From assembly GCA_030267245.1 (NCBI GenBank), contig JAJDJN010000004.1, forward strand, positions 1 to 40,018: 40,018 nt of DNA, written 5' to 3'. A program made the position numbers and the translations under genes. Shown here one piece after another: positions 1,498-28,054 of the stretch. The number at the start of each line of letters is the position of its first letter. Within the stretch, counting starts at the first letter, position 1. The notes beneath the pieces are model-generated. The model saw only the letters and a program-made list of their open reading frames with translations, was not told where the DNA came from and did no database searches. Source of the DNA: Desulfovibrio sp. OttesenSCG-928-A18 (GTDB lineage Bacteria; Desulfobacterota; Desulfovibrionia; Desulfovibrionales; Desulfovibrionaceae).

Positions 1498-1511
1498 AGT
1501 CGAAAGCGAAT
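1498..1511. promoter_or_regulatory. Dispersed palindrome copy 1 (AGTCGAAAGCGAAT)
   Basis: Copy of the ATTCG-N4-CGAAT element with one mismatch in the left arm. It lies between the stop of the VRR-NUC gene and the ribosome-binding site of the next gene. The same 14 bases recur exactly at 12132-12145. It is a candidate repressor-binding site; the binding protein is unknown. Confidence 0.5.
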
Positions 1512-1526
1512 AAAAGGAGATGGTTT

Positions 1527-1754
1527 ATGAATAATGAGACTATGACATGCCCAAATTGCGGGAGCAATTGCTGCCGCGACTCTATTCATAACGGTTTGGG
1601 CTGGATGTATGGGCCTTGGGGCTGCTTTTGTGGATGGAGCGAATCTGAGCGGTACAATCAGCTTACAGGGACGAAGTTTACGGAGGGCGGAACACATAAG
1701 CTTGATCAGTGGGGAGGCGCAACGCCGATAAATAAGGCGGTGAATCGTGGCTGA
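1527..1754 (+). CDS. Small zinc-ribbon-like protein, 75 aa
   Basis: The N-terminus has CPNCGSNCC, followed by a Trp/Gly-rich stretch with CFCGW, which together could bind one metal ion. Phages often carry such short 'Lar-like' or zinc-ribbon proteins (some Lar proteins ease host restriction), but the resemblance is to the general cysteine layout only, so no function is assigned. AAAAGGAG lies 8 bases before the ATG. The 3' end overlaps the GTG start of the adenine methylase gene by 8 bases, so the two are translationally linked. Confidence 0.65.
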   Translation: MNNETMTCPNCGSNCCRDSIHNGLGWMYGPWGCFCGWSESERYNQLTGTKFTEGGTHKLDQWGGATPINKAVNRG

Positions 1755-2223
1755 TATCAAGGCCTGCCTCTCCACCGGCAAAGACGATTGGGAAACGCCA
1801 GAAGATTTCTTTCGGGAGCAGGAACGCAAGTACGGCACCTTTGATCTGGATGCTTGCGCCACAAAGTACAACTCGAAATGCCTGAGCTACTTCTCGCCCG
1901 AAGAAGACGGGCTGAAACAGAAGTGGTTCGGCAACGTCTGGTGCAATCCAGCCTACAGCAAGGGCCAGCCCGACTTCTGGATACGCAAAGCCATCGCCGA
2001 AGTCGAAGCCGGCAATGCCCGCCAAGTCGTCATGCTCCTGCGCTGCGACACCAGCACGAAACGCTGGCACGACCTGATAGTGCCGAACGCTGCGGATTGG
2101 GATTTCGTGCGCGGGCGGATCAAGTTTGTAGGCGGTGACGGCGGCGCACCATTCGCCAGCGTGGTCGTCGTGTTCAGGAAGGGCGAGAAGCGCATCAAGC
2201 GCGAGGCTTTGTTGCGTCCATAG
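1747..2223 (+). CDS. Phage DNA N6-adenine methyltransferase (Dam-type)
   Basis: The protein fits the phage N6-adenine methyltransferase family (PF05869): the start DDWETPEDFF, then FDLDACAT, and the catalytic NPPY-type motif in VWCNPAYS (NPAY variant), followed by a Rossmann-like half with VVMLLRCDTSTKRWHD and a final SVVVVF strand. It would transfer a methyl group from SAM to adenine, probably protecting phage DNA or altering regulatory sites; the target sequence cannot be read from the gene. The start is GTG at 1747, overlapping the previous gene. The C-terminus again ends ALLRP, with the same DNA as at the end of the VRR-NUC gene. At 158 aa it is close to the family's usual length. Confidence 0.85.
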   Translation: MADIKACLSTGKDDWETPEDFFREQERKYGTFDLDACATKYNSKCLSYFSPEEDGLKQKWFGNVWCNPAYSKGQPDFWIRKAIAEVEAGNARQVVMLLRCDTSTKRWHDLIVPNAADWDFVRGRIKFVGGDGGAPFASVVVVFRKGEKRIKREALLRP

Positions 2224-2258
2224 ATAATCAAATTTGACTAAAAAGGAGAGAAAATAAG

Positions 2259-2948
2259 ATGACTGGAGCAGAAAGAATAGCTGTTGAACGTGAACGGCAG
2301 ATTGAAAAGGAAGGGTGGAATGCGGAGCATGATGCACAGCATACCGGGGGAGAACTCGCTCTCGCTGCGGTGTATTACGCCATGCCGGAAGTTATTTTCA
2401 CTGAGGCGGGCGCAAAAGTCATTCGGTGGCACGATGGGAAATACACCAATATTGTGCGTGATAGCGGATACATCATTCCTGACGACATTGACCGGCAAAT
2501 TGGATGGAATCTAAACCGCGACAAAAAAACACGCCTGCGCCAGCTTGAAATCGCCGGGGCGCTGATCGCCGCCGAAATTGACCGCCTGCTGGCGGTGGAG
2601 AAGGAACAGTCTCGCATTAGTGAAACCTTCATAACAGTTAAAGGCAAGACGTTTTTGTGCGCCTGTGGAGGCCAAATTTTCAGCGATTACGGGGACAATA
2701 ACTACAAATGCAACGCCTGCGGCGAAGAGTATGTGGGAAGCCCTAAAGACCAGCCAGAACCGTGGGCCAGTGGCGGCAACTACACACAATGCCCCGGCTT
2801 CGGCAGCACTGGCGATTGCACCGTTACACATACATGTGAACATCACACTGATTGTGCCGCGTCTCTGGCGGACACCATTGAAAACTATTGCGGTCGCTGC
2901 GGCAGACTGAACGAGGAATGCGTTTGTGGAGGTGAAAGCCATGAGTAG
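2259..2948 (+). CDS. Phage protein with N-terminal 'ERQRQIEKEGW'-type domain and C-terminal zinc ribbons
   Basis: The first ~115 residues match a common phage protein of unknown function, with IAVERERQIEKEGW, a HDAQHTGGELALAA helix and the end LEIAGALIAAEIDRL. From about residue 128 there are two metal-binding-like parts: CACGG...CNACGEEY, a classic zinc ribbon, and a Cys/His-rich tail (CTVTHTCEHHTDC, CGRCGRLNEECVCGG). The joining of these parts may be specific to this phage group. The protein is on the plus strand with a good ribosome-binding site (AAAGGAG) before the ATG, and overlaps the next gene by 8 bases. Function is not known; binding of nucleic acid or partner proteins through the ribbons is a guess. 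Confidence 0.65.
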   Translation: MTGAERIAVERERQIEKEGWNAEHDAQHTGGELALAAVYYAMPEVIFTEAGAKVIRWHDGKYTNIVRDSGYIIPDDIDRQIGWNLNRDKKTRLRQLEIAGALIAAEIDRLLAVEKEQSRISETFITVKGKTFLCACGGQIFSDYGDNNYKCNACGEEYVGSPKDQPEPWASGGNYTQCPGFGSTGDCTVTHTCEHHTDCAASLADTIENYCGRCGRLNEECVCGGESHE

Positions 2949-3357
2949 CCACATGCCTGTAACATCGGCCCGCAACAGAAAGCTTTGGAGAGACGTGTTT
3001 TTAAGCGATAAGGCGCACGATGCGGGAAACCCGGACACTTGTACTTGTTTCTTTAAAACTCACGCGCAAGATTTCGCTCTTTTATGCCTTGATGAATTGG
3101 ATAAAATTTATGCCATATCGGAGGCGCAGGAGCGGCTTATTGAGGCTCTGGATGAAAAAATAAAAAGTTTTGCATATCGCAAAAAAATTGAAACCTTAGC
3201 CCGCGAAGTTGAGCATGGCTATCGGGCTGGATGGAATTATCCAAATTTAAAAAAGCGAGTCCGATCCGCAAAGGAAAGGCATCGCAAGGCAATATCTGAA
3301 GTCAAGGCATCTCGCGCCGCCATGGACGCGCTGAGAGCGGAGGTAAACCATGAGTAA
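2941..3357 (+). CDS. Hypothetical coiled-coil protein, 138 aa
   Basis: No family recognised. The ATG at 2941 is preferred over a GTG at 2926 because GGAGGT stands 7-8 bases in front of it. The second half is long, charged and helical (KKIETLAREVEHGY, LKKRVRSAKERHRKA), typical of a coiled coil. A single CTCF motif near residue 40 could bind metal only with a partner. It overlaps both neighbours by 8 bases through the same ATGAGTA arrangement, so it is part of a tightly packed early operon. Confidence 0.6.
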   Translation: MSSHMPVTSARNRKLWRDVFLSDKAHDAGNPDTCTCFFKTHAQDFALLCLDELDKIYAISEAQERLIEALDEKIKSFAYRKKIETLAREVEHGYRAGWNYPNLKKRVRSAKERHRKAISEVKASRAAMDALRAEVNHE

Positions 3358-4486
3358 AACACGCATCGAGTGGTGTGACCACACCATTAATCCTATTGTT
3401 GGTTGCTCAAAGTGCTCGCCCGGATGCGACAACTGCTATGCCGAAAAGATGGCCTGGCGGCTGTCAAAGAATCCGCTCACGGCGCAAAAGTACGCCGGGA
3501 TAGTGGATAAGAACGGCTGGACGGGGAAAATCCATTACAGCACCACGAATGCTCACCGCCATGATGAACCGCACCGTGTGCCAGGCAAAAATAAGCGTGT
3601 GTTCATTGGCAGCATGACCGACATGTTTCACCCGAATGTGGCACAAGATGCGCTCGATGAAGTCTTTGCATCTATTCTGGCCGATACGATTTTCACCAAT
3701 GGACACGGGCATAAATTCATAATGGTGACAAAGCGTGTAGACCGCATGCTTGAATATTTCGCGCCAGGGCCAGATGTACTCTTGCGCCGCTGGTGCGCAG
3801 CCGGTGACGGCTGGATTTTTACCGATGATCCCGACATTAGCTTTTCGGACTATGCCGAGGGGCAGACGATTCCGCAGCCTGAACATGAAAAGCACCCCTT
3901 GTTGCGGCACGAATACCTCTGGCCGCTGCCAAACTTTTGGGCTCTGGCGACCATCTGCAATCAGTCAGAGGCAGACGAAAAAATACCACTTCTGCTTCAG
4001 GTTCCGGCGACAAAGCGTGGCGTGAGCGTGGAGCCCATGCTGGGGGCGGTGAATATATCGCATTACCTGGAACTGGCAAATTGCCAATATGATGTGACGG
4101 GCGATATCCAACACTACGACATGCTACTCAACTGGGTGATCAGCGGCCTCGAAACCGGCCCCAATGCCCGCCCTGCGCATCCTGACTGGCTGCGGTCGCT
4201 GGCCCGGCAGTGCGCCGATGCCGGTGTGCCGTACCTGCATAAGAGCAACGGAGAGTGGCGGGAGGCGGACAGCTTCGAGCGCGGCAAGTATTGCTCCATC
4301 ATAGATTGCTACAGAAGCGCCAGGCCGGAGCAACGGCCTGAAGGAAGCGACGCCGCTTTCATAAAACAATTCTGTCAGGTGGCATTGGCTGAAGGAAGCC
4401 CGGCGGCACGGCTCATGCGCCGCGTCGGCAAAAGCAAAACCGGACGCCTCATTGATGGCGTGGAATACAATCAGTTTCCGGAGTGA
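3350..4486 (+). CDS. DUF5131 (phage Gp37/Gp68) family protein
   Basis: This 378-residue protein begins KTRIEWCDHTINPIVGC and continues with CSKCSPGCDNCYAEKMA at about residues 22-38, the hallmark of the Gp37/Gp68 (DUF5131) family of phages and mobile elements. The cysteine cluster resembles that of radical-SAM enzymes, and the length and later motifs (IGSMTDMFHP, ISGLETGPNARP) fit the family. The reaction is not known to me; a role in modified-nucleotide chemistry is often suggested. GGAGGTAAACC precedes the ATG. It sits among methylase and kinase genes, which agrees with a DNA or nucleotide modification role, but that is inference. Confidence 0.85.
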   Translation: MSKTRIEWCDHTINPIVGCSKCSPGCDNCYAEKMAWRLSKNPLTAQKYAGIVDKNGWTGKIHYSTTNAHRHDEPHRVPGKNKRVFIGSMTDMFHPNVAQDALDEVFASILADTIFTNGHGHKFIMVTKRVDRMLEYFAPGPDVLLRRWCAAGDGWIFTDDPDISFSDYAEGQTIPQPEHEKHPLLRHEYLWPLPNFWALATICNQSEADEKIPLLLQVPATKRGVSVEPMLGAVNISHYLELANCQYDVTGDIQHYDMLLNWVISGLETGPNARPAHPDWLRSLARQCADAGVPYLHKSNGEWREADSFERGKYCSIIDCYRSARPEQRPEGSDAAFIKQFCQVALAEGSPAARLMRRVGKSKTGRLIDGVEYNQFPE

Positions 4487-4492
4487 ATAAAG

Positions 4493-4876
4493 ATGAAAAA
4501 GCATGTACCCTTTACAACTCTCGTGGGGATGACGCTCAAATCCATCACTCATGATATCGATACAATGGAATTTATAAATGCTGAGGGACGACGATTCAGA
4601 TTGTTTCATGATCAAGACTGTTGCGAGTCTGTTGAAATTGAAGATATCTGCGGCGACCTGAACGACCTCATTGGATATCCGATCCTTGTTGCCGAGGAAC
4701 GGACAAGCACCGATGAAGAGGCAAAGGACCGCTGGGATGAATCGTATACTTGGACGTTCTACGAACTGCGTACTATCAAAGGCAGCGTGACAATTCGCTG
4801 GTATGGAACAAGCAACGGATACTACTCAGAAGACGTGGATTTCGTTGAAATACTTGACATAGAGGGTGCAGTATGA
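4493..4876 (+). CDS. DUF7448-like phage protein, 127 aa
   Basis: The sequence has the pattern of a small phage family I remember as DUF7448: a start with TLKSITHDIDTMEF, the segment LFHDQDCCESVEIEDICGDL, then a repeated Tyr/Trp-rich end (TIRWYGTSNGYYSEDVDF). Function is unknown. There is no transmembrane segment. The ATG follows GGAG by 9 bases, and the stop overlaps the kinase start codon (ATGA), so the two genes are likely translated together. Confidence 0.7.
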   Translation: MKKHVPFTTLVGMTLKSITHDIDTMEFINAEGRRFRLFHDQDCCESVEIEDICGDLNDLIGYPILVAEERTSTDEEAKDRWDESYTWTFYELRTIKGSVTIRWYGTSNGYYSEDVDFVEILDIEGAV

Positions 4877-6142: not shown

Positions 6143-6146
6143 CTGT

Positions 6147-6659: not shown

Positions 6660-6839
6660 AGCGTCGTCCTCATTTTTTTGGCGTCGAGACTCGAAAAAGT
6701 TGGCGTCGATCTTGCGTTTTTTGGCGTCGAGACTCGAAAAAGTTGGCGTCGATCTTGCGTTTTTTGGCGTCGAGTGTCAGGATTTTTGGCGTCGAGACTC
6801 GAAAAAGTTGGCGTCGAGAGTCGGTTTTTCCAGCGTCGA
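6660..6839. repeat. Iteron-like array, GGCGTCGA core every 21-23 bp
   Basis: The 8-bp core GGCGTCGA occurs at 6680, 6702, 6723, 6745, 6766, 6789 and 6810, with AGCGTCGA at 6832 and a weaker AGCGTCGT at 6660. Steps are 20-23 bp, close to two turns of the DNA helix. Bases 6680-6722 and 6723-6765 are identical. Cores are preceded by T runs, and alternate cores are followed by GAGACTCGAAAAAG, which holds the odd palindrome TCGAGACTCGA. The period of 43 bases is not a multiple of three, so this is not a coding repeat. It resembles plasmid and phage replication iterons or a partition site. Confidence 0.8.
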
Positions 6840-6883
6840 GGGCGCGGTTTTTGCCCTGCTTCCGGGCCGTTTTCGGGGCTGGG

Positions 6884-7570: not shown

Positions 7571-7633
7571 AAAGTTTCCGGTCTTATCGCTTGCCCTTGG
7601 ACAGCCAAGGGCAAGAGGAAGACTGGAAACTTT
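7571..7633 (-). repeat. Duplicated stem-loop, copy A (leader of the 75-aa gene)
   Basis: A two-part hairpin. The outer arms AAAGTTTCCGGTCTT and AAGACTGGAAACTTT pair with one mismatch. The inner arms CTTGCCCTTGG and CCAAGGGCAAG pair perfectly around an ACAG loop. Bases 7575-7629 match 8830-8884 with only two changes. It starts at the stop codon of the clamp gene, so it lies between two genes of one operon. Confidence 0.7.
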
Positions 7634-8798
7634 AAGCGGCCTGGCTCTGGCGGTCTTCGGCCTCGCAATTGTCAGGATGCCAGCTTTGTAAGATTTTCAT
7701 TGGCATGATGACGTATACGCCGCGCCAGCCATCGCCGATAAAACACGGCCCGACATTGTTTGTAAATTCCAGCGTGACAAAATCGCCTGTTGTGTTTTCG
7801 ACGATCTGCAAAAGGTTTTTAAGCGGAAAAGCTATTATGTTTACATCGCCGTAAAACTCGCATGGCATTTCCGCACTCGCTCGCCTGTTATGTGTCATTA
7901 TTGAGCACTTGCAATCGTCAAAATTAAACACTATTGAACGATCATCATTCGTAACAGACGGCAATAGCGTTTTCAAAATTGCAACAAGCCCTGATCGCGA
8001 AAAAGTTACGCTGCTTTTCGCTTCGCGCTCTCGCCGCACCATAAAATTGCTTATGTCAATCGCATTGTATGGAGAAAAAACGGAAGTATAGACGGAATTT
8101 TGCGAGGCAGCGAAAAAGTGATCTTCCGTTGCAGAAAGGCGGATCGTCTTTTCTGACTTCGGGATTGCCCTTACCCATTGTGCGAACTGGTCCGGCCTTG
8201 GCAAAGTCGCATTGCCACCAGGCGAAAAAGCGCCGTATTGCTCACCTTGCAAAGTCAGACTGTAACATTGATGACCATTGAGGGCGGACATAAGCAAGCG
8301 TGAATCGGAAAAGTCAAGTTGTATGCATGACAAGCCATCATGCGAGGCATCGCCGGCACAAAATGCCATCCGTTCAGCGACGCGCAACAGTTCGGCGCGA
8401 TCAACCTCAAGGCAATTTTGAGGAAAACTTTCAACCTGCTTGCGCATGGGGCGCGATCCATGCTTGGCATTCTCAATCTTTTGCGTTGCCGCGCCTTGAA
8501 AAATGACATCATAGTCCGTTGAAAGCGTTGCATCTGCTACCTTGGCAGACTTTGCGCTTTTTGCGGCGCTGTCGAGCGCTTGATAATTCAAGCTCTCGAT
8601 CGACTCTGGTGCGGTCACTTCGGCAGGTACGCGCGAGACAATGCGCGAGTCATCGTTTTCAGTCGTGATCAAAATTGAGTCTTTGGCGGCTTCAATGGTC
8701 ACGCAGTCATTGAGGTATGCCTTGCCCTTGAGATTGAGGGCGGGCTTGACGGATTGCAGCGCGTTGAAAAAATCGGCAGTGTTAAAAGTCGCTTGCAT
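7632..8798 (-). CDS. dnaN-like: Phage-encoded DNA polymerase III beta-like sliding clamp
   Basis: The 388-residue protein shows the overall pattern of a bacterial beta clamp. It starts QATFNTADFFNALQSVKPAL and has TIEAAKDSILITTEN typical of the first clamp domain, AERMAFCAGDASHDGLSCIQL in the second, and the ending VYVIMPMK, close to the usual 'vyvvMPmrl' at the clamp C-terminus. A short tail after it is extra. As a ring around DNA it would tether a polymerase. No clamp loader or polymerase gene is in this window, so it would have to use the host's or ones outside. The ATG at 8798 is chosen because GAAGGGAG precedes it and clamp homology begins there; a longer frame to 9011 runs through the upstream stem-loop. 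Confidence 0.8.
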   Translation of the reverse strand: MQATFNTADFFNALQSVKPALNLKGKAYLNDCVTIEAAKDSILITTENDDSRIVSRVPAEVTAPESIESLNYQALDSAAKSAKSAKVADATLSTDYDVIFQGAATQKIENAKHGSRPMRKQVESFPQNCLEVDRAELLRVAERMAFCAGDASHDGLSCIQLDFSDSRLLMSALNGHQCYSLTLQGEQYGAFSPGGNATLPRPDQFAQWVRAIPKSEKTIRLSATEDHFFAASQNSVYTSVFSPYNAIDISNFMVRREREAKSSVTFSRSGLVAILKTLLPSVTNDDRSIVFNFDDCKCSIMTHNRRASAEMPCEFYGDVNIIAFPLKNLLQIVENTTGDFVTLEFTNNVGPCFIGDGWRGVYVIMPMKILQSWHPDNCEAEDRQSQAA

Positions 8799-10880: not shown

Positions 10881-11123
10881 TTAATCTATTTTGCGCGGCT
10901 CGTTACGTCTCTTTGCGGGCTTGGCCTGCAAGCGCTTAATGTCTGCCGGGGATAGCAGCCAAGTCTTGCCCACTTTCACGCAATCGGCCACTTCTTCACG
11001 CCCGGCATTACACCATAGTTGCAGAGTTCGCGGAGTCGCATAGCCAAGCAGCGCGGCGGCTTCCGTGATTGTCATGTAACCGGCGCGAATATATTCCGGC
11101 ATTGTTTTTGTGACTTCTTTCAT
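10881..11123 (-). CDS. Small helix-turn-helix DNA-binding protein (excisionase/MerR-like)
   Basis: The 80-residue protein has the layout of short HTH_17/excisionase-type proteins: MTITEAAALLGYATPRTLQLW, a turn, then VGKTWLLSPADIKRLQ, and a basic tail (KPAKRRNEPRKID). In phages this class directs excision or represses promoters; without an integrase in the window the role is open. The ATG at 11123 lies only 6 bases from a strong -10 box, so this start would be used on a nearly leaderless RNA; a second in-frame ATG at 11102 is an alternative. Confidence 0.7.
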   Translation of the reverse strand: MKEVTKTMPEYIRAGYMTITEAAALLGYATPRTLQLWCNAGREEVADCVKVGKTWLLSPADIKRLQAKPAKRRNEPRKID

Positions 11124-11241: not shown

Positions 11242-11952
11242 ATGAAAAACAATCAGCCTGTGCTTTCCTCGCTTTCTGTCGTCGGTGGCGTTCCCCGCGT
11301 TTCGTCGCTCGATGTGGCCCGGCATTTTGAAAAGGATCATGCCGATGTTCTTAAAGCAATCAGAAAAATTATTTCAGAGTGTCCACCGAATTTTAACGAA
11401 GGAAATTTTTCCGGCGTTGAATACTCGGATGCCAAGGGGGAAACGCGGCCCGCCTATGCCCTCACCCGTGACGGCTTTGCACTCCTGGCTATGGGCTTCA
11501 CCGGCAAGCGTGCCCTTGAATGGAAAATCAAATATATCGAAGCCTTCAACGCAATGGAAAAAGCTTTGATTGAACAGCATGTAGCACTAAGGCCCGCTCC
11601 AGCGTGCGCGATCATGGAAATGCTGCCGCCGCTTAAGCTGCACACGCGTCCTGGACAAGTCGCGCGCACAGCGACAATCAAAGAACGCGAAAGCCTGTAT
11701 GAGCCCGTCTGCGAATGGATAAAGTCTATGGACCGCCCTTGCGGCTCCGGCGGCTTTTTCCTGGGGCTGTCGATATGCGCCCACATGGCCGGCGTTGAGA
11801 GATTCTCGCAAATCCCCCAGCACGCTATAAAACCCCTTCATGCCTGGCTTGAAGAACGGATTGACGAATCGTACGCTCTGATTCAGGAACGCAGGAGGCA
11901 CGCTCGCGCCGCCCGGCTCGCTGCTATGCAGCCCGCAACCGCCATCTTGTGA
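11242..11952 (+). CDS. rha: Rha family phage regulatory protein
   Basis: The first ~115 residues match the Rha family: VSSLDVARHFEKDHADVLKAI, then RPAYALTRDGFALLAMGFTG and KRALEWKIKYIEAFNAME. Rha proteins interfere with growth or lysogeny choice in some lambdoid phages and are treated as regulators or antirepressors. The last part (about residues 150-215, RESLYEPVCEWIKSM...HMAGVERFSQIP...LHAWLEERI) is a different helical domain that also appears in the 100-aa protein at 12731 and the BRO protein at 13067. AAGGAG lies about 8 bases before the ATG at 11242. A GC hairpin terminator follows the gene. Confidence 0.85.
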   Translation: MKNNQPVLSSLSVVGGVPRVSSLDVARHFEKDHADVLKAIRKIISECPPNFNEGNFSGVEYSDAKGETRPAYALTRDGFALLAMGFTGKRALEWKIKYIEAFNAMEKALIEQHVALRPAPACAIMEMLPPLKLHTRPGQVARTATIKERESLYEPVCEWIKSMDRPCGSGGFFLGLSICAHMAGVERFSQIPQHAIKPLHAWLEERIDESYALIQERRRHARAARLAAMQPATAIL

Positions 11953-11985
11953 TAGTCTGACAACAAAAGCGACTGCGGGTCTAAT

Positions 11986-12019
11986 GCCCTGGACGGTTTC
12001 AAGCTGGCCAGGGCTTTTT
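11986..12019 (+). terminator. Intrinsic terminator after rha
   Basis: Arms GCCCTGG (11986-11992) and CCAGGGC (12008-12014) followed by TTTTT. It stands 34 bases after the rha stop codon. Confidence 0.8.
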
Positions 12020-12395
12020 GTGTGCCTGGAGCCTGGAGCAAGCCAAGCCGGCGGGGCATCGGTGGCGCCCCGATAGCGTCAAATCAATGACCTGCCCCTA
12101 ATTCGCTCACAATTGCCCGCAGATGCGCGAAAGTCGAAAGCGAATGCCAGGATGGCCGGAGGCGCGAGCGCTCCCCTGGCGGGCAGCCAGGTGGCAAGAA
12201 TGGGGGGGAGGGGGGATGTTTATCTCTAGGGGCTCTCGGGGGTGAACCGACGTCGGCCCTAAATTCACAGTAGGCCAAAATCACCTTGGCGTTACCAACT
12301 GAATTCATTTACTTAATTTTGCTAGGGTGCAAAAGTCCGTATACCTCCCATGCCCTTTGCACCCTCCGAACACGCGCCATCCCGAAGTAGACCAG
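12020..12395. other. Gene-free structured stretch between rha and the small minus-strand gene
   Basis: No protein reading frame here looks real. The stretch holds a GC hairpin (CGGGGC/GCCCCG near 12051-12072), copy 3 of the dispersed palindrome (12132-12145), long G and C runs, and a perfect 10-bp inverted repeat AGGGTGCAAA (12324-12333) / TTTGCACCCT (12356-12365). It may carry a small RNA or control sites. Confidence 0.4.
12132..12145. promoter_or_regulatory. Dispersed palindrome copy 3 (AGTCGAAAGCGAAT)
   Basis: Identical to copy 1 at 1498-1511. No gene start or obvious promoter stands next to it, which would suit a transcription-blocking site rather than a classical operator. Confidence 0.5.
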
Positions 12396-12566: not shown

Positions 12567-12730
12567 ACTCTCTCCTTTTCTAGAGTTTTTCTATAATATA
12601 CTGTAATCACTACAACTATAGCGGCCATGTTTATAAATATCAACAAAAAAATTAAAATATTTTAATTTCAATTCGATTGCTAATGTCATATCCTATTCTT
12701 TTACGAATAAAAAAAGACAAGGGGTAGACC
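12567..12730. promoter_or_regulatory. AT-rich divergent control region with palindrome copy 4
   Basis: Between two divergent genes. It contains TGTAATCACTACA (12611-12623), the dispersed element ATTCTTTTACGAAT (12695-12708, one arm mismatch) and a weaker look-alike ATTCGATTGCTAAT (12671-12684). Exact promoter boxes are not clear. Confidence 0.5.
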
Positions 12731-13033
12731 ATGAAAAAGATTTCTTCCACAACACGCCTTACACTTTCATCTCTTTTCCCGGAGAGCGCACCGAGGCTCA
12801 TTAGCGGACTCTGCATGAGTGGCCGTGTATCCACGGAGGGCGAGCGCCAAGAGCTTCTTGAGCCTCTGATTCTGTGGTGGCGCGGTGTCTCTCCTGAACA
12901 TGACCCCATGGATCTTGCGCTCCTGAAAGCTGCGACGGCCAGGGCGGCCGGTGTCGATGATTTTTCGCGCATCAAGGGGGCAGACGTGCCGCTTGTCAAA
13001 ACTTGGCTTCACGAGATTGTGGCGTCTTTGTAG
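12731..13033 (+). CDS. Hypothetical regulator-like protein, 100 aa
   Basis: The last 60 residues (RQELLEPLILWW...ARAAGVDDFSRIKG...LVKTWLHEIV) align with the C-terminal domains of the Rha protein and the BRO protein on either side. The conserved points are the leading ERxEL, a Trp helix, A-x-x-A-G-V, then IP/IK and W-L-x-E. Here the N-terminal DNA-binding or Rha/BRO part is missing and replaced by about 40 other residues. It might compete with the full-length proteins for the same partner. AAGGGG lies about 7 bases before the ATG. Function unknown. Confidence 0.65.
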   Translation: MKKISSTTRLTLSSLFPESAPRLISGLCMSGRVSTEGERQELLEPLILWWRGVSPEHDPMDLALLKAATARAAGVDDFSRIKGADVPLVKTWLHEIVASL

Positions 13034-13066: not shown

Positions 13067-13771
13067 ATGACCAAGTTTCCCGCTCTCACTTTTCAGTCCA
13101 CCACTTTTGATATCGTTGATCTTGATGGGCAGCCGTGGCTACAGGCTCCTCAAATTGCAGCGGCCTTGGGATACTCGCGCCCTGACGAAATCTCGCGCCT
13201 CTACCAGCGAAATGCCGACGAGTTTACTGAAAGCATGACGCAAACTATTGAAATCGTCGCAGAACACCACTTTGACACGCCAAATGGCCTTAGCAACGGG
13301 CGAACCCGCATCTTCTCCCTGCGCGGCTGCCACCTCCTTGCCATGTTCGCCCGCACGCCGGTCGCCAAAGACTTCCGTAAGTGGGCGCTCGACATCCTGG
13401 AGAGAGAAGCGCAACAGGCTCAACGCCATCCGCTTCCCGCGAACGTCCACCCCGCGAGCCTGCTCCCAGCTTTCTTTCAGGAACTCCCCACCCTCCCGAA
13501 AGGCAACCGGGCGTCCAGCAGTCGAGAGCGCCGCGAGCTCTTTATAGCCATGCATAACTGGATAAAAACGTGGGGAGGGCACAGCACTGAAGATTACACC
13601 TTCGCTCAGGCCATATGTGCCAGGCTCGCCGGGGTCAATGAGTATAAGCTTATACCCTTTGCCTCACTTCCCGCACTCGTTAAATGGCTGGAAGAGCACA
13701 CGAAAGAAGCCTCGACCATTGAGGAGCACGCGCTGCCGGACGCCGGCGACACGCTTGGGGTCGGCTCCTAA
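13067..13771 (+). CDS. BRO-N domain antirepressor-like protein
   Basis: Residues 1-115 form a BRO-N domain (FQSTTFDIVDLDGQPWLQAPQIAAALGY, then SLRGCHLLAMFARTPVAKDFRKW), as found in phage antirepressors and baculovirus BRO proteins. The rest carries the C-terminal helical domain shared with rha and the 100-aa gene (RRELFIAMHNWIKTW...CARLAGVNEYKLIP...LVKWLEEHT). CGAAGGAG precedes the ATG. A 114-bp block (13304-13417) is about 95% identical to the BRO gene at 26783-27754 on the other strand. The likely role is to switch immunity by binding a repressor or operator; the repressor is not identified. Confidence 0.8.
   Translation: MTKFPALTFQSTTFDIVDLDGQPWLQAPQIAAALGYSRPDEISRLYQRNADEFTESMTQTIEIVAEHHFDTPNGLSNGRTRIFSLRGCHLLAMFARTPVAKDFRKWALDILEREAQQAQRHPLPANVHPASLLPAFFQELPTLPKGNRASSSRERRELFIAMHNWIKTWGGHSTEDYTFAQAICARLAGVNEYKLIPFASLPALVKWLEEHTKEASTIEEHALPDAGDTLGVGS
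13304..13417. repeat. 114-bp inverted repeat, copy in the first BRO gene
   Basis: Pairs with 27404-27517 in opposite orientation, with about six differences by eye. It encodes the BRO-N core around the conserved RIFSLRGCH...LAMFARTPVAKDFRKW. Confidence 0.8.
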
Positions 13772-14262
13772 AAAATCTGCGAAAATGAACGCGGTGCCCG
13801 GTCGCACGGTCAGCAATACCGCACCCTCAGCCAGAAAAATAGCCTTATATTTCAGGGCGTTTTCATTTGGCCCCTTTATGCATTTTGCATTTTTCATGCC
13901 AAAAATTATAATATTTTTACAACACTCGGTAACTTTCTGTTTTATTTCACGATACTATTTAACTAACCAATACTCTAGGTTTTGAGTCAGTTTGTTTTTT
14001 TGAAACAATTTAAATTTTCCGAAAATGTTTATTACGAGTAGCAAGCCTACTGTGCCAATGGTTTTAAAGTATTGGCTGGAGTGTTGAGAGATGAGTGGGG
14101 TATTGCTATCTCTGGGGATTGCCTGGCCCGTTTTGACCTTATCCTATTTAATTTATTGACAAACCCCCTATATAAGGGGACCTGGACTCGTTGGGAGAGT
14201 AAGAAAAAAAGGGCATCCGGAGAGGGCGGGGCGGAAAGCAAGAAGCGTGCCACCACGCCAAC
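13772..14262. other. Gene-poor AT-rich stretch before the lysis genes
   Basis: No convincing gene. It has a strongly AT-rich part (about 13890-14045), the tight palindrome CCCCT-ATATA-AGGGG (14167-14181) just after a TTGACA (14156-14161), and a tiny frame at 14091-14159 for a 22-residue hydrophobic peptide. The region probably holds the promoter of the lysis genes, but no clear -35/-10 pair at proper spacing can be assigned. Confidence 0.4.
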
Positions 14263-14278: not shown

Positions 14279-14292
14279 ATTCGTTTACGAAT
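14279..14292. promoter_or_regulatory. Dispersed palindrome copy 5 (ATTCGTTTACGAAT)
   Basis: Perfect 5-bp arms. A TTGACG (14263-14268) lies just upstream, so a repressor bound here could cover the -10 area of a promoter driving the lysis cassette. Confidence 0.6.
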
Positions 14293-17031: not shown

Positions 17032-17345
17032 TGAGCGACAAGACTTTTGCTGTAATCAGCATAGACCACAATGACATCGCTGGTTCTATTTCTCAGGCTG
17101 TAGAAGAGGCGAAGAATGAATTCATGGCGGAGATTGTCAAGGGCGGATTTCTCATTTCTGCAAAGGACACGCTGTTTATACATTCGCCCGCTGCCGCCAA
17201 CGAAATTAAGCGAATAGTGGTTAACGGCGTGGAGATCCCCACAGACGGAGTGCAGGACATTACTTTTACGGCATATGCAGCCGATCTTTGCAATCTTCAG
17301 ATCAACAGACTCCTGTCAGCGGGCAGCTATGGGGGGAAGTCGTAA
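17031..17345 (+). CDS. Hypothetical protein, 104 aa
   Basis: No family recognised. The sequence is soluble with a helical N-terminal half (AGSISQAVEEAKNEFMAEIV) and a strand-rich second half (KRIVVNGVEIPTDGVQDITF). It lies between HNH and TerS in a tightly overlapping operon (AAGGA before the ATG), so it is likely made with packaging proteins. Confidence 0.6.
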   Translation: MSDKTFAVISIDHNDIAGSISQAVEEAKNEFMAEIVKGGFLISAKDTLFIHSPAAANEIKRIVVNGVEIPTDGVQDITFTAYAADLCNLQINRLLSAGSYGGKS

Positions 17346-17829: not shown

Positions 17830-17843
17830 AATCGTAAACGAAT
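17830..17843. promoter_or_regulatory. Dispersed palindrome copy 6 (AATCGTAAACGAAT) at the terminase start
   Basis: One mismatch in the left arm. It ends 5 bases before the TerL ATG, where a ribosome-binding site would be expected; no purine-rich site is visible. A GGGC/GCCC hairpin lies just upstream. Confidence 0.55.
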
Positions 17844-21485: not shown

Positions 21486-22982
21486 ATGTACCCGATTCCC
21501 AAAGGCCTGCTTGCCAAACTGCGGGCCGAACTCGGCAAAGGAATTTCCCGTTTTCGCAATGACTTTTCGGATTCCATTGCGGAACTGGAAGAGAAGATGC
21601 ACGACCTTACCGACCGCGTGACCAAGCTTCAGGCGGCGATTGACGGAGACGGACGCAGCCCCACTCCCGAAGAAGCCAAGGAGCGCCAGGCGCTTATGGA
21701 CGAATTCGATGAAACGGAAAAGGAGCTCCAGGCCCGTCTTCGCCTCCAGGATCAGGAAGCGCGGCTTCAGGCTTCCGCCGGGCGCTATACCGTTCCCGGC
21801 CAGCCGGCCAATAGCAATGCCGATCCCGAAAGCGAATCTGAAGACTCCCCGGCTCCGAAGGCGCAGGCCCGCCCTGTGCAGCCCGCCGCGCCGAAGGCGT
21901 CAGTCGAAGTTGGCGCTCCGTCTTACTACAAGACCGGCGGCTTCAATCACTTCGGCGAGTTCGCGTTGGCCGTTTTCAACGCCAACCCTCGTTCTGGACG
22001 GGGGATAGATAAGCGCCTGCTTCAGATCACCAAGAATGCCCCGACTGACTTCGGCAGTGAGGGCGTTGACGCTGACGGCGGCTTTGCCGTCCCGCCCGAC
22101 TTTCGGGCCGAGATCATGCGCAAGGTGATGGGCGAAGCTTCAATTGTGGGAATGACTGATCAGCAGACCACCACCAGCAAGGCCATGACCTTCCCCATGG
22201 ACGAAACGACTCCCTGGCAGTCCACCGGCGGCATCCAGGTGGGATGGATCGGCGAAGGCCAGCCGATCACCCAAAGCAAGCCCGCGCTGACCAGCGGCGA
22301 AATCAAGCTGAACAAGCTGGCCGCGTTGGTACCCATCACCGAGGAACTGCTGGAAGACGCCCCGGCCATGGATCGTTACTTGAACTCCAAGGTTCCCCAG
22401 AACATGGGATTCGCCTTGAACGATGCCATCATCAATGGCACCGGCACCGGACAACCCCTGGGCATCCTGCAATCCGGAGCGCTGATAACCGTGGCCGCCG
22501 ATACTGCACAGGTGGCGGACACGATCACCTACACCAACATCGCCAAGATGCGCGGTGCCATGTACGCCGCAGGCAAGTCTCGCGGCGTGTGGCTGGCGAA
22601 CCCGTCCATTGAAGAAACGCTTATGCTGATGACGTTCCCGAGCACCACCAGTACCGTGCCGGTGTATCTGCCGCCCAACGGCGCTTCCGGTTCTCCCTAC
22701 GCTACCCTGTTCGGGCGCCCGGTCATCCCGACCGAAGCATGCGCGGATACCGGAGATCTCGGCGACCTCATCTTTGTGGACCTTGCACAGTATGCGACCC
22801 TGACTCGTCGCGGACGTGGTCTGAGGACAGATTATTCCATCCATCTGTTCTTTGACTACGACATCGGCGCGTTCCGCTTCATCTTGCGGTTCGGCGGCAG
22901 GCCCTGGTGGAACTCTCCCATCCAGGGCAAGACGGCCAGTCGCAAGTACAGCGCGTTCGTAGCTCTCGCCGAGCGCGCGTAA
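21486..22982 (+). CDS. Major capsid protein, HK97 fold, with N-terminal delta domain
   Basis: Residues 1-90 are a coiled coil (LRAELGKGISRFRNDFSDSI and following), the delta or scaffold part. It is followed by a Pro/Ala/Ser linker, then the HK97 capsid core with TDFGSEGVDADGGFAVPPDF, GWIGEGQPI, LVPITEELLEDA and INGTGTGQPLGIL. The protease upstream would cut in or after the linker, leaving a mature protein of roughly 350 aa; the exact site cannot be read. CAGGAGG lies before the ATG. Length 498 aa is longer than classic HK97 because of the extended linker. Confidence 0.93.
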   Translation: MYPIPKGLLAKLRAELGKGISRFRNDFSDSIAELEEKMHDLTDRVTKLQAAIDGDGRSPTPEEAKERQALMDEFDETEKELQARLRLQDQEARLQASAGRYTVPGQPANSNADPESESEDSPAPKAQARPVQPAAPKASVEVGAPSYYKTGGFNHFGEFALAVFNANPRSGRGIDKRLLQITKNAPTDFGSEGVDADGGFAVPPDFRAEIMRKVMGEASIVGMTDQQTTTSKAMTFPMDETTPWQSTGGIQVGWIGEGQPITQSKPALTSGEIKLNKLAALVPITEELLEDAPAMDRYLNSKVPQNMGFALNDAIINGTGTGQPLGILQSGALITVAADTAQVADTITYTNIAKMRGAMYAAGKSRGVWLANPSIEETLMLMTFPSTTSTVPVYLPPNGASGSPYATLFGRPVIPTEACADTGDLGDLIFVDLAQYATLTRRGRGLRTDYSIHLFFDYDIGAFRFILRFGGRPWWNSPIQGKTASRKYSAFVALAERA

Positions 22983-23041
22983 CCCAGACCCGGCCCGGGG
23001 GTTCTCTCCTTTCTCCCGGGCCGGCGCCAGAGGATATGCAC

Positions 23042-23512
23042 ATGGAAAAAATCAAGATCAGGTTCCTTGAAGACTGCGCCCCGAAGGACGGGAGCGGCAC
23101 CAAGTATAAGGCCGGCGAAGAACGCGAAATGGCTCGGCCCAGCGCTGAACATTGGGTCAAGCGCGGGAAGGCTGAAGCGGTGAACGGCGAGACCCAGGCT
23201 CCTGTACCTCTGCCCATCCCCGGTGCCCCGGCCCTAGGCCCGGAGGACGGCAAGCAGCCGGAAGGCGACAAGCAGCCGGAAGGCGACAAGCAGCCGGAAG
23301 GCGACAAGCAGCCGGAAGGCGACAAGCAGCCGGAAGGCGACAAGCAGCCGGAAGGCGACAAGCAGCCGGAAGGCGGCAAGCAGCCGGAAGGCGACAAGCA
23401 GCCGGAAGGCGACAAGCAGCCGGAAGGCGACAAGCAGCCGGAAGGCGACAAGCAGCCGGAAGGCGACAAGCAGCCGGAAGGCGACAAGCAGCGTGGCAGG
23501 AGTAAATCCTGA
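23042..23512 (+). CDS. DUF7210-like protein with a KQPEGD hexapeptide repeat tail
   Basis: The first ~50 residues (KIKIRFLEDCAPKDGSGTKYKAGEE, then SAEHWVKRGKAE) match the small phage domain often found between capsid and connector genes. The second half is a run of 13 KQPEGD units (one is KQPEGG), coded by an 18-bp tandem repeat. Such a charged, extended tail may be exposed on the virion like a decoration or fibre, but this is inference. The ATG at 23042 is chosen because homology begins there and AGAGGA precedes it. The stop overlaps the connector start. Confidence 0.7.
   Translation: MEKIKIRFLEDCAPKDGSGTKYKAGEEREMARPSAEHWVKRGKAEAVNGETQAPVPLPIPGAPALGPEDGKQPEGDKQPEGDKQPEGDKQPEGDKQPEGDKQPEGDKQPEGGKQPEGDKQPEGDKQPEGDKQPEGDKQPEGDKQPEGDKQRGRSKS
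23252..23493. repeat. 18-bp tandem repeat coding for KQPEGD
   Basis: The unit GGCGACAAGCAGCCGGAA is repeated about 13 times, nearly perfectly (one unit has GGCGGC). The near absence of silent changes points to recent expansion or homogenisation; repeat number is likely to vary between relatives. Confidence 0.9.
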
Positions 23513-24096: not shown

Positions 24097-24098
24097 CC

Positions 24099-24455: not shown

Positions 24456-24901
24456 TGGCCGTGAACAAGCGCATCCGCTTCCGTGGTGGCGGGTACATGG
24501 ACATGAGCCTGTACTTTGACGAGATTCCTGACGCGTTCAGGGACGCTGTGATGGCCGAGCTTTCTCCGGTCATGGATAAAATGGTGTCTTCCGCGAAGCA
24601 GAAAGTGCATGTGGGCAGCGGGCCGCGAGATCCGAGGCCCGTCTACGAAGACGGCAAGTACGCGGGCGAATCCTGGACCTCCCGTGACCCCGGCAGGCTG
24701 AAGAAGACCATCAGGCGGGCGGTGCATCGCCGGAAGGATAAAACCGCTGTCATCGGCTTTTTTGAGGCCGGGAGTGAAGATGCCTATTACGCGCTGATGC
24801 ACGAGTATAAGAACCCGTACTTTGAATCCTCGTTTAACGAGAACCGCGCTACGGCCATGAATGCCGTTATCAAAGCTCTGGACAAGGTGACAAAAACATG
24901 A
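24455..24901 (+). CDS. HK97 gp10-like neck protein
   Basis: The length and pattern (MVSSAKQKVHVGSGPRD, then ALMHEYKNPYFESSFNENRA) match HK97 gp10-type proteins of the head-tail junction. 'HE' followed by the aromatic 'p.PF'-like segment is the family's recognisable point. It overlaps both neighbours by 1-4 bases. Confidence 0.8.
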   Translation: MAVNKRIRFRGGGYMDMSLYFDEIPDAFRDAVMAELSPVMDKMVSSAKQKVHVGSGPRDPRPVYEDGKYAGESWTSRDPGRLKKTIRRAVHRRKDKTAVIGFFEAGSEDAYYALMHEYKNPYFESSFNENRATAMNAVIKALDKVTKT

Positions 24902-25317
24902 GGACCGCGCTACTCACCGGCATATTCAGCCACCTGACGGCAAACCCCGACGATGCCTTTGTGCTCGCGCTCGGCGGGGCCGCCAATGACGGGGCTGACT
25001 TGCGCTACTGGCCGAACGGAGCGCCGCAGCGGGCGGCGTACCCCTACGCGGTGGCGATGCTGGTTTCCGACCTCGATGTTGGCGCAATCACCGCCGATAT
25101 CAGTGAAATTCAGTGGCGCATGATGATATTCACCAGGACGCTTTCAGAGGGCAACGCCCTCGCCGCGTCCTGCAAAAAATTGTTCAACAGGCAAGTCCTG
25201 TCCTGCGGGACGGGCTGTTTCATATGCAGATACGAGGGCACGTTACCTTCCTTGCGGGAGTCGGACACGGACCCTTTTGAAACGCCGGTAACGTTTTCGT
25301 GTTACCTTGAGGAGTAA
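24898..25317 (+). CDS. Tail terminator / DUF3168-like protein
   Basis: Position between gp10 and the tail tube, size (139 aa) and the pattern YPYAVAMLVSDLD...IQWRMMIFTRTLSEGNALAASCKKLFN agree with tail-completion proteins of the DUF3168/lambda U type, which cap the tail tube. Direct sequence recognition is moderate. Confidence 0.7.
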   Translation: MRTALLTGIFSHLTANPDDAFVLALGGAANDGADLRYWPNGAPQRAAYPYAVAMLVSDLDVGAITADISEIQWRMMIFTRTLSEGNALAASCKKLFNRQVLSCGTGCFICRYEGTLPSLRESDTDPFETPVTFSCYLEE

Positions 25318-25322
25318 AGCCC

Positions 25323-26033
25323 ATGTCTCAGGCAAAGCAGTGTGGTACCGGGGCCAATGTCGGTATTGATACCGAAGTCATTTTTCATCCGAAAACAGCC
25401 AGGGAAATCAAGCTCCCCGGCCTGAACAACGCGCAGCTTCCGGGGTGGAACACGGAACAGATTACAGACGACTCTTTTGACAAGGAAATCGCCGGGATTA
25501 TCCTCGGCGGCCTGTCATATCAGCCGGCAAGCATGTCGGTATATATGCGGAGCCAGGACCCGGCCCAGGAAGAGATCCGGGTGATGTCGCGAGAACGGCG
25601 GGAGTTCAATGATATCTGGATCGTATATAACAAGAAGTACGGCCATTTCTGGGCGCTGGATCTTGTCCGCGATCCCTGCGGATTGTGCGGATTGTCCAAT
25701 TACGCGCCGCAATCATATGGCCGTAACGATCTCCAGCAGATCCAGTTTACGCTCACGGCAAACGGCGACAGCGCTCTGTATGAGTACCATACGACTTCGG
25801 TACAGTACGACATTGCAGCGGGCGTAGCCACCGCCACTGACGGCGACTTTGTAAACAGGGGCTTCAAGAAGGGCATGACGCTGATCATGGAAACCGGCGA
25901 CCAGACAAGCCCGTTTGTGCTTGGCCTGGTGGCCGAAGTGACGGCGACCACGCTTACACTTACCGACACGTCAATAACCCAGGCCGGGCTTGAGGGCCGC
26001 ATACACGGCGCGGTCGTTTCGCTGGAGGATTAA
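25323..26033 (+). CDS. Major tail tube protein
   Basis: This 236-aa protein lies between the tail terminator and the chaperones, the normal place for the tube protein. It has a tube-like core (about residues 1-150) and then an extra C-terminal domain rich in Thr/Val (FVLGLVAEVTATTLTLTDTS), of the kind often added as a surface domain. GAGGAG precedes the ATG. The call rests on order and general features. Confidence 0.8.
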   Translation: MSQAKQCGTGANVGIDTEVIFHPKTAREIKLPGLNNAQLPGWNTEQITDDSFDKEIAGIILGGLSYQPASMSVYMRSQDPAQEEIRVMSRERREFNDIWIVYNKKYGHFWALDLVRDPCGLCGLSNYAPQSYGRNDLQQIQFTLTANGDSALYEYHTTSVQYDIAAGVATATDGDFVNRGFKKGMTLIMETGDQTSPFVLGLVAEVTATTLTLTDTSITQAGLEGRIHGAVVSLED

Positions 26034-26038
26034 CAGCA

Positions 26039-26401
26039 ATGGCGCTGATCATCAAAAAAGACAATTCGGTGCGCAAATGGTTCGATATCCCTGGCGGTGG
26101 CGGCGCCCAGGTGCTGTTGCGTATGGAAGGTGAATCGGAAGCCGCTCTGGGCACGGAGGCCTTGTACACCAAGGTTTACGCTGGGGCCAGTGTCAGCGAG
26201 GACATTGAAAAGCTATACCTCAACGCCATTGAAGACTGGCGAGGCGGTGTTGAGGACGAATCCGGCAAAGCGCTCAAATGCACCGTCACCAACAAGCGGC
26301 TGTTCATCCGCCAGGACGGGATAATTCATTTTTTGCGCGAGTCCCTGGCCGAGATGCGTGAAGGGCTCGAACAAGAGCGCAAGGCCGCTGAAAAAAACTG
26401 A
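26039..26401 (+). CDS. Tail assembly chaperone, G-like
   Basis: A 120-aa protein in the place of lambda gpG, directly after the tube gene, with a long terminal helix (LRESLAEMREGLEQERKAAEKN). Near its end the codons GAA AAA AAC TGA form the slippery heptamer A-AAA-AAC (26392-26398). A -1 shift there continues into the frame that follows to 26745 and would make a G-T fusion, as in lambda. The protein helps the tail tube form around the tape measure. Ribosome site GGAGGA precedes the ATG. Confidence 0.82.
   Translation: MALIIKKDNSVRKWFDIPGGGGAQVLLRMEGESEAALGTEALYTKVYAGASVSEDIEKLYLNAIEDWRGGVEDESGKALKCTVTNKRLFIRQDGIIHFLRESLAEMREGLEQERKAAEKN
26392..26398 (+). promoter_or_regulatory. -1 frameshift slippery site AAAAAAC
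   Basis: Canonical X-XXY-YYZ heptamer in the zero frame of the G gene, directly before its TGA. A stem (ATTGC/GCAAT around AGCC-GGGA-GGCT, roughly 26420-26450) lies about 22 bases downstream. Confidence 0.75.
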
Positions 26402-26745
26402 CCAGCCTTGCGTCATGGATTGCGGAAGCCGGGAGGCTCGACTGCAATTTGTGCCGCAGGGTGTATGAAAACTATGGGGACGAACCCCCTTGCGCGACAT
26501 GTTATCCCGGCATCCACCCCTGGAACGAGACGGCATTCAACGTTTGCTGGAAGTGGGTCAAGGGTCAATGGCGGTCAGCGCCATCAGGGGTGCTGGCAGT
26601 TGATCTTTGCGCCATAGATATAGCCTTGCGTTACTGTGGCATAGACGAAGCGGACAAGCCCCGAGTCGCGGGGCAACTGTTGAAAATAGGTGAAGTTGTG
26701 CTTGCCGAATTCAGACGCAGGGAAGAGGCGCAGGCGAAAAATTAG
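26398..26745 (+). CDS. T part of the G-T tail chaperone (reached by frameshift)
   Basis: The frame is open without its own good start or ribosome site from just after the slippery site (LTSLASWIAEAGRLDCNLC) to 26745. It has cysteines in CNLCRRV and CATC that could bind metal, then WNETAFNVCWKWV and a helical end. It fits the T domain of tail chaperones, made only as an extension of G. It is followed by a bidirectional terminator. Confidence 0.75.
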   Translation: MTSLASWIAEAGRLDCNLCRRVYENYGDEPPCATCYPGIHPWNETAFNVCWKWVKGQWRSAPSGVLAVDLCAIDIALRYCGIDEADKPRVAGQLLKIGEVVLAEFRRREEAQAKN

Positions 26746-26777
26746 GGCCGGGGGTGACTCCCCGGCCCTCTGTTTTT
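26745..26777. terminator. Bidirectional terminator between tail chaperones and the inverted antirepressor
   Basis: Arms GGGCCGGGG (26745-26753) and CCCCGGCCC (26760-26768), then TCTGTTTTT to the right and, read on the other strand, TAATTTTTC to the left. It would end both the late tail RNA and the antirepressor RNA, in the middle of the tail gene cluster. Confidence 0.85.
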
Positions 26778-26791
26778 ATTCGTTAACGAAT
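26778..26791. promoter_or_regulatory. Dispersed palindrome copy 7 (ATTCGTTAACGAAT)
   Basis: Perfect over all 14 bases. It overlaps the stop codon of the inverted antirepressor and lies right after the terminator, not at a promoter. Confidence 0.6.
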
Positions 26792-27754
26792 GAGCCGTTC
26801 AATGCGGTTGATGTTTCTCAGCAGCAGCATTTGCATTGCGTTTTCAAGGGCTGGATAGCCCATGTTCGCGCCAGGTATGGTGGTTTCCAGTATGGTCAGG
26901 TCGTCGCGTATGCGCTCCAGGGCGCGGGTCATCGAGCCTTGCGCTGCGCGGTTTTTGGCAGGCGCGGGGGCCTGCGGTTCGGGGGCGGGAGGCAGTTGTT
27001 TCATTTTTTTCCGATCAGGTTTCGGCACGACGAGTGCAAGCGGGCCGTTTTTGGGGAGCACGTAGACGCCGCGAGATGTTGACCGCCCCTCCGCTTCGGG
27101 GAATTTGAGGTTGTAGCGGGCGTAGCCGCAGCCGAACATCCTCAGAAGCCTGGAGATGTAGCCGTCTGCCCAATCATCGGCTTCCGGCTTGCGCTGCACC
27201 AGCCATTCCCTGAAATGGTCGGCAAAGAAGCACGTTTTGATCCTGTTGCCATGGGTCATGAACGGGGTGCGGGCGCGGCAGGCGGCAATGTCGTCGGTGC
27301 TTGGCGGGTAGGCTTCCAGGTAGTCGGTAACGTCCGTCCAGAGCAGGGTGCGCGGCAGTCCGGCGATGGGTTCATCGTCAGCAATGGCCGCTTGGGGGCG
27401 CGGCTGTTGCGCTTCTCTCTCCAGGATGTCGAGCACCCACTTACGGAAGTCTTTGGCGACCGGCGTGCGGGCGAACATGGCGAGAGCGTGGCAGCCGCGC
27501 AGAGAGAAGATGCGGGTTTCCTGCGGCCCGCCAGGCGTCGGCAGCGTGACCACGGCGGTCATTGAGTCGGTGAACTCGTCGGCGTGGCGGTCGAAGAGGT
27601 TTCGGATTGATCTGCCTCCATAGGTAGGATCAAATTGACCTTCCCTTTGACTATACCCCAAAGCCTCTGCGATTTGTGGGATTTTGACCCAGGGCTGCCC
27701 GTCACGATCAATGACATCAAAAGCGGTGGATTGGAAAGCGAGAACCGTTTGCAT
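26783..27754 (-). CDS. Second BRO-N antirepressor, inverted within the tail operon
   Basis: Residues 1-120 form a BRO-N domain very like the one at 13067 (FQSTAFDVIDRDGQPWVKIPQIAEALGY, SLRGCHALAMFARTPVAKDF). The rest is different: a linker, then a domain with WTDVTDYLEAYPPSTDDIAAC, HFREWLVQRKPEADDWADGY and RGVYVLPKNGPLALVV, basic and probably DNA- or protein-binding, and a helical tail. The ATG at 27754 has GGAGG 6 bases before it, but that site lies inside a stem (27761-27828). It stands on the minus strand within plus-strand tail genes, as morons do. It may act as a second immunity switch. Confidence 0.8.
   Translation of the reverse strand: MQTVLAFQSTAFDVIDRDGQPWVKIPQIAEALGYSQREGQFDPTYGGRSIRNLFDRHADEFTDSMTAVVTLPTPGGPQETRIFSLRGCHALAMFARTPVAKDFRKWVLDILEREAQQPRPQAAIADDEPIAGLPRTLLWTDVTDYLEAYPPSTDDIAACRARTPFMTHGNRIKTCFFADHFREWLVQRKPEADDWADGYISRLLRMFGCGYARYNLKFPEAEGRSTSRGVYVLPKNGPLALVVPKPDRKKMKQLPPAPEPQAPAPAKNRAAQGSMTRALERIRDDLTILETTIPGANMGYPALENAMQMLLLRNINRIERLIR
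27404..27517. repeat. 114-bp inverted repeat, copy in the second BRO gene
   Basis: Opposite-orientation partner of 13304-13417. Recombination between the two would invert the 14 kb between them or swap antirepressor C-termini. Confidence 0.8.
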
Positions 27755-27760
27755 GAAAAC

Positions 27761-27828
27761 CTCCGAAGAACTTCTCAATTGGCATTCGCGAAATGCAAAA
27801 TGCCGGGTGTTGAGAACGACCTTCGGAG
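27761..27828 (-). promoter_or_regulatory. Leader stem-loop covering the antirepressor ribosome-binding site
   Basis: Three nested perfect arm pairs: CTCCGAAG/CTTCGGAG (27761-27768, 27821-27828), TCTCAA/TTGAGA (27773-27778, 27810-27815) and GGCATT/AATGCC (27781-27786, 27799-27804). In the minus-strand RNA, GGAG of the ribosome-binding site is part of the last outer arm, six bases from the ATG. Confidence 0.7.
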
Positions 27829-27880
27829 TCGCCGCAGGGCTTTAGGCCAAAGCCATTGGACATAACCTGCACACCCGGCA
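27801..27880. other. Overlapping inverted repeats upstream of the antirepressor
   Basis: TGCCGGGTGT (27801-27810) and ACACCCGGCA (27871-27880) are perfect 10-bp arms and enclose a further hairpin, GGCTTT-AGGCC-AAAGCC (27838-27854). The first arm overlaps the leader stem, so the two structures exclude each other. The rest of the gap to 28085 holds no gene; it contains dispersed palindrome copy 8. Confidence 0.6.
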
Positions 27881-28040
27881 TCATAGCCGTAAGCGCCTCA
27901 GCCAAATTCTAGGCGCAAAAAAAGCCAGTCTGTCGGGTTGGCGTATCCGCCGAAGGGTGTTTCTCACGCACCGTGAAGGCAGCTTGCCAAATCCCGATGG
28001 AAATGTCAAGTTCTATAAAAATGAGGCGTAAGACAATATT

Positions 28041-28054
28041 ATTCGAATACGAAT
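28041..28054. promoter_or_regulatory. Dispersed palindrome copy 8 (ATTCGAATACGAAT)
   Basis: Perfect arms. It directly follows TATTAT, a possible -10 box, 32 bases before the start of the HIRAN-HhH gene. A promoter for the moron genes under the same control is likely. Confidence 0.55.

Follow-up and report, generated by a model that had tools for sequence, protein, structure and literature searches.

A short dyad-symmetric site, ATTCG-N4-CGAAT, recurs at eight noncoding or gene-edge positions of a tailed phage contig from a Desulfovibrio bin. Judged from their sequence and placement, these sites constitute a real, phage-specific network and are probably operators. We give somewhat better than even odds (probability about 0.55) that they are the operators of one dimeric phage-encoded regulator, most likely a lysogeny repressor encoded in the missing part of the phage. 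A preliminary description of the same DNA had read the palindromes as a phage-wide operator or stoperator network. Enrichment, placement, and the contrast with the whole bin support that reading in part: the dyad sites form one network spread over the noncoding DNA of the phage, and a single dimer presumably binds them.

The window, that is, the whole 40,018-bp stretch of DNA that was analyzed, is one complete contig (C253) without a terminal repeat, and belongs to a host bin of 2.37 Mb that is 66% complete. Its gene content identifies it as an HK97-type tailed phage or prophage, with late genes for TerS (starting at 17288 or later), TerL (17849), portal, a ClpP-like protease, and major capsid (21486), followed by long tail genes; the named large-terminase relatives come from Desulfovibrio and Desulfovibrionaceae bins. 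The left end falls within a methyltransferase-like ORF, both ends look cut, and no continuation of either end was found among the bin contigs. None of the contig proteins scanned was recognized as an integrase, a CI-like repressor, or a primase, so part of the phage is probably missing from the contig; the lack of a clear CI-like repressor had already been noted. The gene after capsid (22907-23512) codes for a long KQPEGD tandem repeat, and the contig also encodes a phage Dam-type methyltransferase (1747-2223), a DUF5131 protein (3350-4486), and a DNA polymerase processivity-factor-like protein (7632-8798), for which no matching polymerase was recognized in the contig.

All eight coordinates and sequences given in the preliminary description are exact, as is its statement that the arms carry no or one mismatch: three sites are perfect (14279, 26778, and 28041) and five have a single mismatch. 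A ninth one-mismatch match, at 12671-12684, had been overlooked. The sites are as follows.

1498 to 1511, plus strand: site 1, AGTCGAAAGCGAAT, in its 16-bp form TAGTCG-N4-CGAATA, then AAAA
11191 to 11204, minus strand: site 2, AGTCGAAAACGAAT on the minus strand, in the gap that separates the divergent HTH (minus) and Rha (plus) genes
12132 to 12145, plus strand: site 3, AGTCGAAAGCGAAT, the 14-mer of site 1 without the outer T/A positions
12671 to 12684, plus strand: weak near-match, ATTCGATTGCTAAT, 24 bp from site 4
12695 to 12708, plus strand: site 4, ATTCTTTTACGAAT, then AAAAAAA, 22 bp ahead of ATG 12731
14279 to 14292, no strand assigned: site 5, perfect, ATTCGTTTACGAAT, upstream of endolysin
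17830 to 17843, plus strand: site 6, AATCGTAAACGAAT, at the TerS/TerL junction
26778 to 26791, minus strand: site 7, perfect, ATTCGTTAACGAAT, between the plus-strand late genes and BRO2 (minus), including the BRO2 stop codon
28041 to 28054, plus strand: site 8, perfect, ATTCGAATACGAAT, then AAAAA

The eight sites fit an extended 16-bp form, TATTCG-N4-CGAATA: seven have no or one mismatch to it, and the remaining one (12132) is the exact 14-mer of 1498. Aligned in a common orientation they read T-A-[T/G/A]-T-C-G-N4-C-G-A-A-T-A, with a spacer that is always 4 bp and mostly A/T, and at least one arm is perfect in every site. Pair 2-13 is broken in four of the eight sites and compensatory changes number zero; because changes in the arms are never compensated, the feature is one of DNA rather than RNA, and an RNA hairpin element, whose stem no such change preserves, was ruled out. 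The 12671 near-match may be an auxiliary site, tentatively so because its matrix score of 12.1 is about the mean of the chance maximum.

It is the noncoding placement that makes the case for the motif decisive; the raw count alone does not. Over the whole window the 14-bp motif has 9 matches versus 1.88 expected. When the count is judged over all possible palindromes, this form gives p = 1e-4, which is modest evidence only, and the 16-bp form TATTC-N6-GAATA a borderline p = 2.5e-6, barely past the best of 30 shuffles. Noncoding DNA makes up 9.4% of the contig, an approximate figure because it comes from a coding map made by hand on the basis of ORFs and homology, and this DNA holds all nine 14-bp matches, with 26778 straddling the BRO2 stop. 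This bears out the gene-free or gene-end placement claimed earlier, and the comparison of coding with intergenic rates shows the motif to be commoner than chance in noncoding DNA, where resampling of this AT-richer sequence predicts 0.23 matches. The best of 1,560 composition-matched control palindromes, assessed on the same hand-drawn map, reaches 3. An unbiased scan of all palindromes with 5-bp arms, in which ORFs of at least 120 aa were masked mechanically, gave the same answer in the unmasked gaps and placed ATTCG-N4-CGAAT at rank 1 (log10 p of -10.5). Another palindrome, CGTCA-N4-TGACG, is over-represented window-wide (12 matches) and was rejected, as it has no perfect copy and lies mainly inside genes.

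The distribution over the bin is one-sided as well. At up to one mismatch, the 16-bp form has seven matches in the 2.37 Mb, all seven on the 40-kb phage contig; the other 2.325 Mb of this 66%-complete bin are free of it. Six congeneric genomes have 2 to 4 scattered 16-bp matches each, one per contig and with spacers mostly containing G/C, which is background. Thus, one short site recurs at many phage loci and is absent from the rest of the sampled host bin, as in an operator network. Because all 16-bp matches sit on the phage contig, a phage-encoded dimeric DNA-binding protein is favored as the binder and the host factor suggested earlier is disfavored. S24 CI-type repressors are encoded on bin contigs C1 and C262 and were considered; those contigs have no 16-bp site at up to one mismatch.

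Most sites lie close to gene starts. The preliminary description held that the sites mark the starts of units, which is true in part: six of the eight are within 72 bp of a start, but 26778 and 12132 lie away from starts, 1498 and 17830 fall inside co-directional gene runs, 26778 separates convergent genes, and 12132 is in long noncoding DNA after Rha. Site 1 occupies a 31-bp gap with plus-strand genes on both sides, beginning 2 bp past the stop of 1175-1495 and ending 15 bp ahead of ATG 1527, with AAAAGGAG downstream overlapping the likely ribosome-binding site. Site 2 is 37 bp ahead of the Rha ATG (11242) and upstream of the sigma70-like promoter of the HTH gene (TTGACG-18-TATAAT, 11159-11130), site 3 is inside a 443-bp noncoding stretch 3' of Rha (11953-12395), and site 4, with the weak 12671 match, precedes the gene of a 100-aa protein and BRO1. 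Site 5 abuts ATG 14293, the homology-supported endolysin start being ATG 14365. Direct reading of the sequence upstream of endolysin also shows a TTGACA with the inverted repeat CCCCTATATAAGGGG close behind it (14156-14179). Site 6, in a 42-bp gap, is 23 bp past the TerS stop and 5 bp ahead of the TerL ATG (17849). Site 7 has convergent genes on either side and is preceded by a hairpin terminator (26744-26769), and site 8 is 31 bp ahead of ATG 28086 (HIRAN gene) and upstream of the divergent BRO2 gene. The genes for this HIRAN-domain protein and a PHROG-15412 protein (28086-29581) adjoin BRO2 between the capsid-type and tail genes; the block is moron-like, and BRO2 has site 7 on one side and site 8 on the other. 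A scan for a shared promoter layout at the sites found no common sigma70 arrangement and no consistent promoter; 17830, 1498, and 26778 have no recognizable promoter.

The proteins of regulatory type encoded in the contig, together with one related to them, are as follows.

10881 to 11123, minus strand: small HTH_17 excisionase or MerR-like protein, a candidate binder (Pfam HTH_17, 3.8e-6; PHROG excisionase, 6e-8)
11242 to 11952, plus strand: Rha-family or antirepressor protein (Pfam Phage_pRha, 1.3e-29; PHROG Rha-like regulator)
12731 to 13033, plus strand: 100-aa protein, mostly the C-terminal domain common to Rha and BRO1, with no Pfam or PHROG match
13067 to 13771, plus strand: BRO1, antirepressor-type (Bro-N, 5.9e-12; PHROG anti-repressor Ant, 1.8e-37)
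26783 to 27754, minus strand: BRO2, antirepressor-type, flanked by sites 7 and 8 (Bro-N, 3.2e-11; PHROG anti-repressor Ant, 1.1e-35)

The C-terminal domain of about 70 aa that Rha, the 100-aa protein, and BRO1 have in common shows 18 invariant columns in the three sequences. It has no Pfam or PHROG match, and a search of viral contigs with its alignment found no relatives.

The dyad symmetry, the constant 4-bp spacer, and the confinement of the sites to the phage point to a DNA-binding protein that acts as a dimer and is encoded by the phage, and the three antirepressor-type genes (Rha, BRO1, and BRO2) suggest that there is a repressor to antagonize; sites lie upstream of Rha and around BRO2. 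Such a dimer would read the ATTCG/CGAAT half-sites across the A/T-rich spacer. Bound near starts (1498, 11191, 12695, 14279, 17830, and 28041), it would stop the transcription of early, regulator, lysis, and packaging genes at initiation or soon afterwards in elongation, and at 17830, 1498, and 26778, where no promoter is recognizable, it may block elongation. The neighboring Rha and BRO genes would relieve repression on induction. Against the repressor-operator reading stand the lack of a recognized CI-like repressor or integrase in the contig, the lack of consistent promoters at the sites, the position of 26778 and 12132 away from starts, and the fact that the network is found in no relative examined.

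A tentative alternative is that a regulator encoded in the contig itself (HTH_17, Rha, BRO1/BRO2, or the common C-terminal domain) binds the sites; it would serve as a repressor, or as an activator or switch of the lytic phase, and not in CI-like immunity. This alternative would fit sites that precede Rha (11191) and the run from 12731 to BRO1 (12695) and flank BRO2 (26778 and 28041), and an HTH gene divergent from site 11191. Excisionase-type HTH_17 proteins, however, mostly bind direct repeats, relatives bearing BRO or Rha lack the motif set, and the AlphaFold model of the common C-terminal domain, three main helices with a mean pLDDT of 74, gave at this low confidence no significant fold match and no clear HTH match.

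A doubtful alternative is that the sites are symmetric stoperators, at which bound repressor would halt elongating RNA polymerase within units, much as in phage L5 but at a dyad. Sites 1498 and 17830 do lie in 31- and 42-bp co-directional gaps, 26778 is just past a terminator at a convergent end, and the CGAATAAAA side points along the transcription of an adjacent gene in most sites, although this polarity comes from few unambiguous cases. The stoperators of L5 (Cluster A) are likewise dispersed and phage-specific and sometimes at promoters, but they are 13-bp asymmetric sites oriented with transcription, 20 to 30 per genome and mostly away from promoters, that block elongation (PMC6550527). 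Here there are eight dyads, three with perfectly palindromic arms and most near start codons, and we do not class the set as stoperators because this asymmetry is lacking. It is similarly doubtful that a dyad stoperator system operates in this phage of a Gram-negative host, in which a dimeric repressor would silence the whole prophage by stopping elongation, binding inside late and early runs (the TerS/TerL junction and 1498) and at the convergent 3' end, with release by three antirepressors that are themselves under the same sites.

The scattered inverted repeats of N15 illustrate another role, that of centromere or replication sites dispersed over a prophage that resembles a plasmid. That the sites here have this role instead of transcription control seems improbable: they are dispersed, phage-specific, symmetric, and intergenic, and Cluster O phages bear such repeats, for which no regulatory role has been demonstrated (PMC4351075), but no ParA/ParB was recognized among the proteins scanned and the sites hug start codons. 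Although about one third of the host genome is unseen and LexA was not identified, a host regulator is unlikely as the binder. Phage genes under host LexA control are common, but it is highly improbable that the sites are a box for a regulator of the Desulfovibrionaceae host, for example its SOS box, given the empty remainder of the 66%-complete bin and the six selected host-contig matches examined, five of which fall within long ORFs and the last (C288) at the end of a contig. Chance or a composition artefact, for which only the borderline raw count over all palindromes speaks, is refuted by the noncoding-only and composition-matched controls and the whole-bin contrast and has a negligible probability.

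Among known systems, the set would work most like P1 and SPbeta in outline, and it most resembles Cluster O in form. P1 has 22 dispersed 17-bp asymmetric operators (ATTGCTCTAATAAATTT) of its repressor C1, plus antirepressors (PMC8546580); many sites spread over the phage genome and antirepressor genes are common to both, as is a single repressor, presumed here, but our sites are eight dyads of 14 to 16 bp. The SPbeta element SPBRE, also short and dispersed across intergenic regions, was predicted from sequence alone and later shown to be the site of the master repressor MrpR (PMC10516654); MrpR is a recombinase-fold repressor, unlike any protein identified here, and the motifs are unrelated. 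Cluster O mycobacteriophages carry 34 copies of the palindrome TGTTCGG-N3-CCGAACA, about one third in coding DNA (PMC4351075). Both are dispersed phage-specific dyads with an A/T-rich spacer, but the sites here are all noncoding or at gene edges and mostly near start codons. In the fashion of P1 and SPbeta, the palindrome most likely marks the binding sites of a single protein, encoded by the phage, that would control many of its genes at once.

The search for the network covered 288 family genomes and those viral contigs that have relatives by capsid, TerL, BRO, or Rha. No comparable palindrome set occurs in 15 related phage or prophage stretches, which is weak evidence because several are partial. 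Of the relatives whose flanks could be used, the nearest (TerL or MCP about 60%) lack the motif. The sole close relative (L004, TerL 89%) is a 5-kb fragment that covers no site region. Among 333 loci screened for clustered sites, the best had two 16-bp matches per locus, and the network was not found. Related phages show a different element, AAAACCGTCCA[A/G]AAAAT, about 60 bp before TerL and followed by TATGCTTAAGCAAATG-like DNA (L174, 7341 and 9940; L175, 2122; L187 and L207, 3826; L068, 805); one of the two L174 copies precedes TerL and the other another gene, and this is possibly a late-promoter element of those phages. A congeneric prophage contig (G009:C169; L115, 16357-18564) has 14-nt and 22-nt tandem repeat arrays.

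A limited search of the literature on lysogeny control in Desulfovibrionaceae phages returned nothing directly relevant. Contrasting a contig with the whole of its bin distinguishes phage-encoded from host regulators in metagenome bins at little cost, and whether a single symmetric operator links the early, antirepressor, lysis, and packaging genes can be tested on this phage. If confirmed, the sites would offer a convenient way into the control of lysogeny in Desulfovibrionaceae phages.
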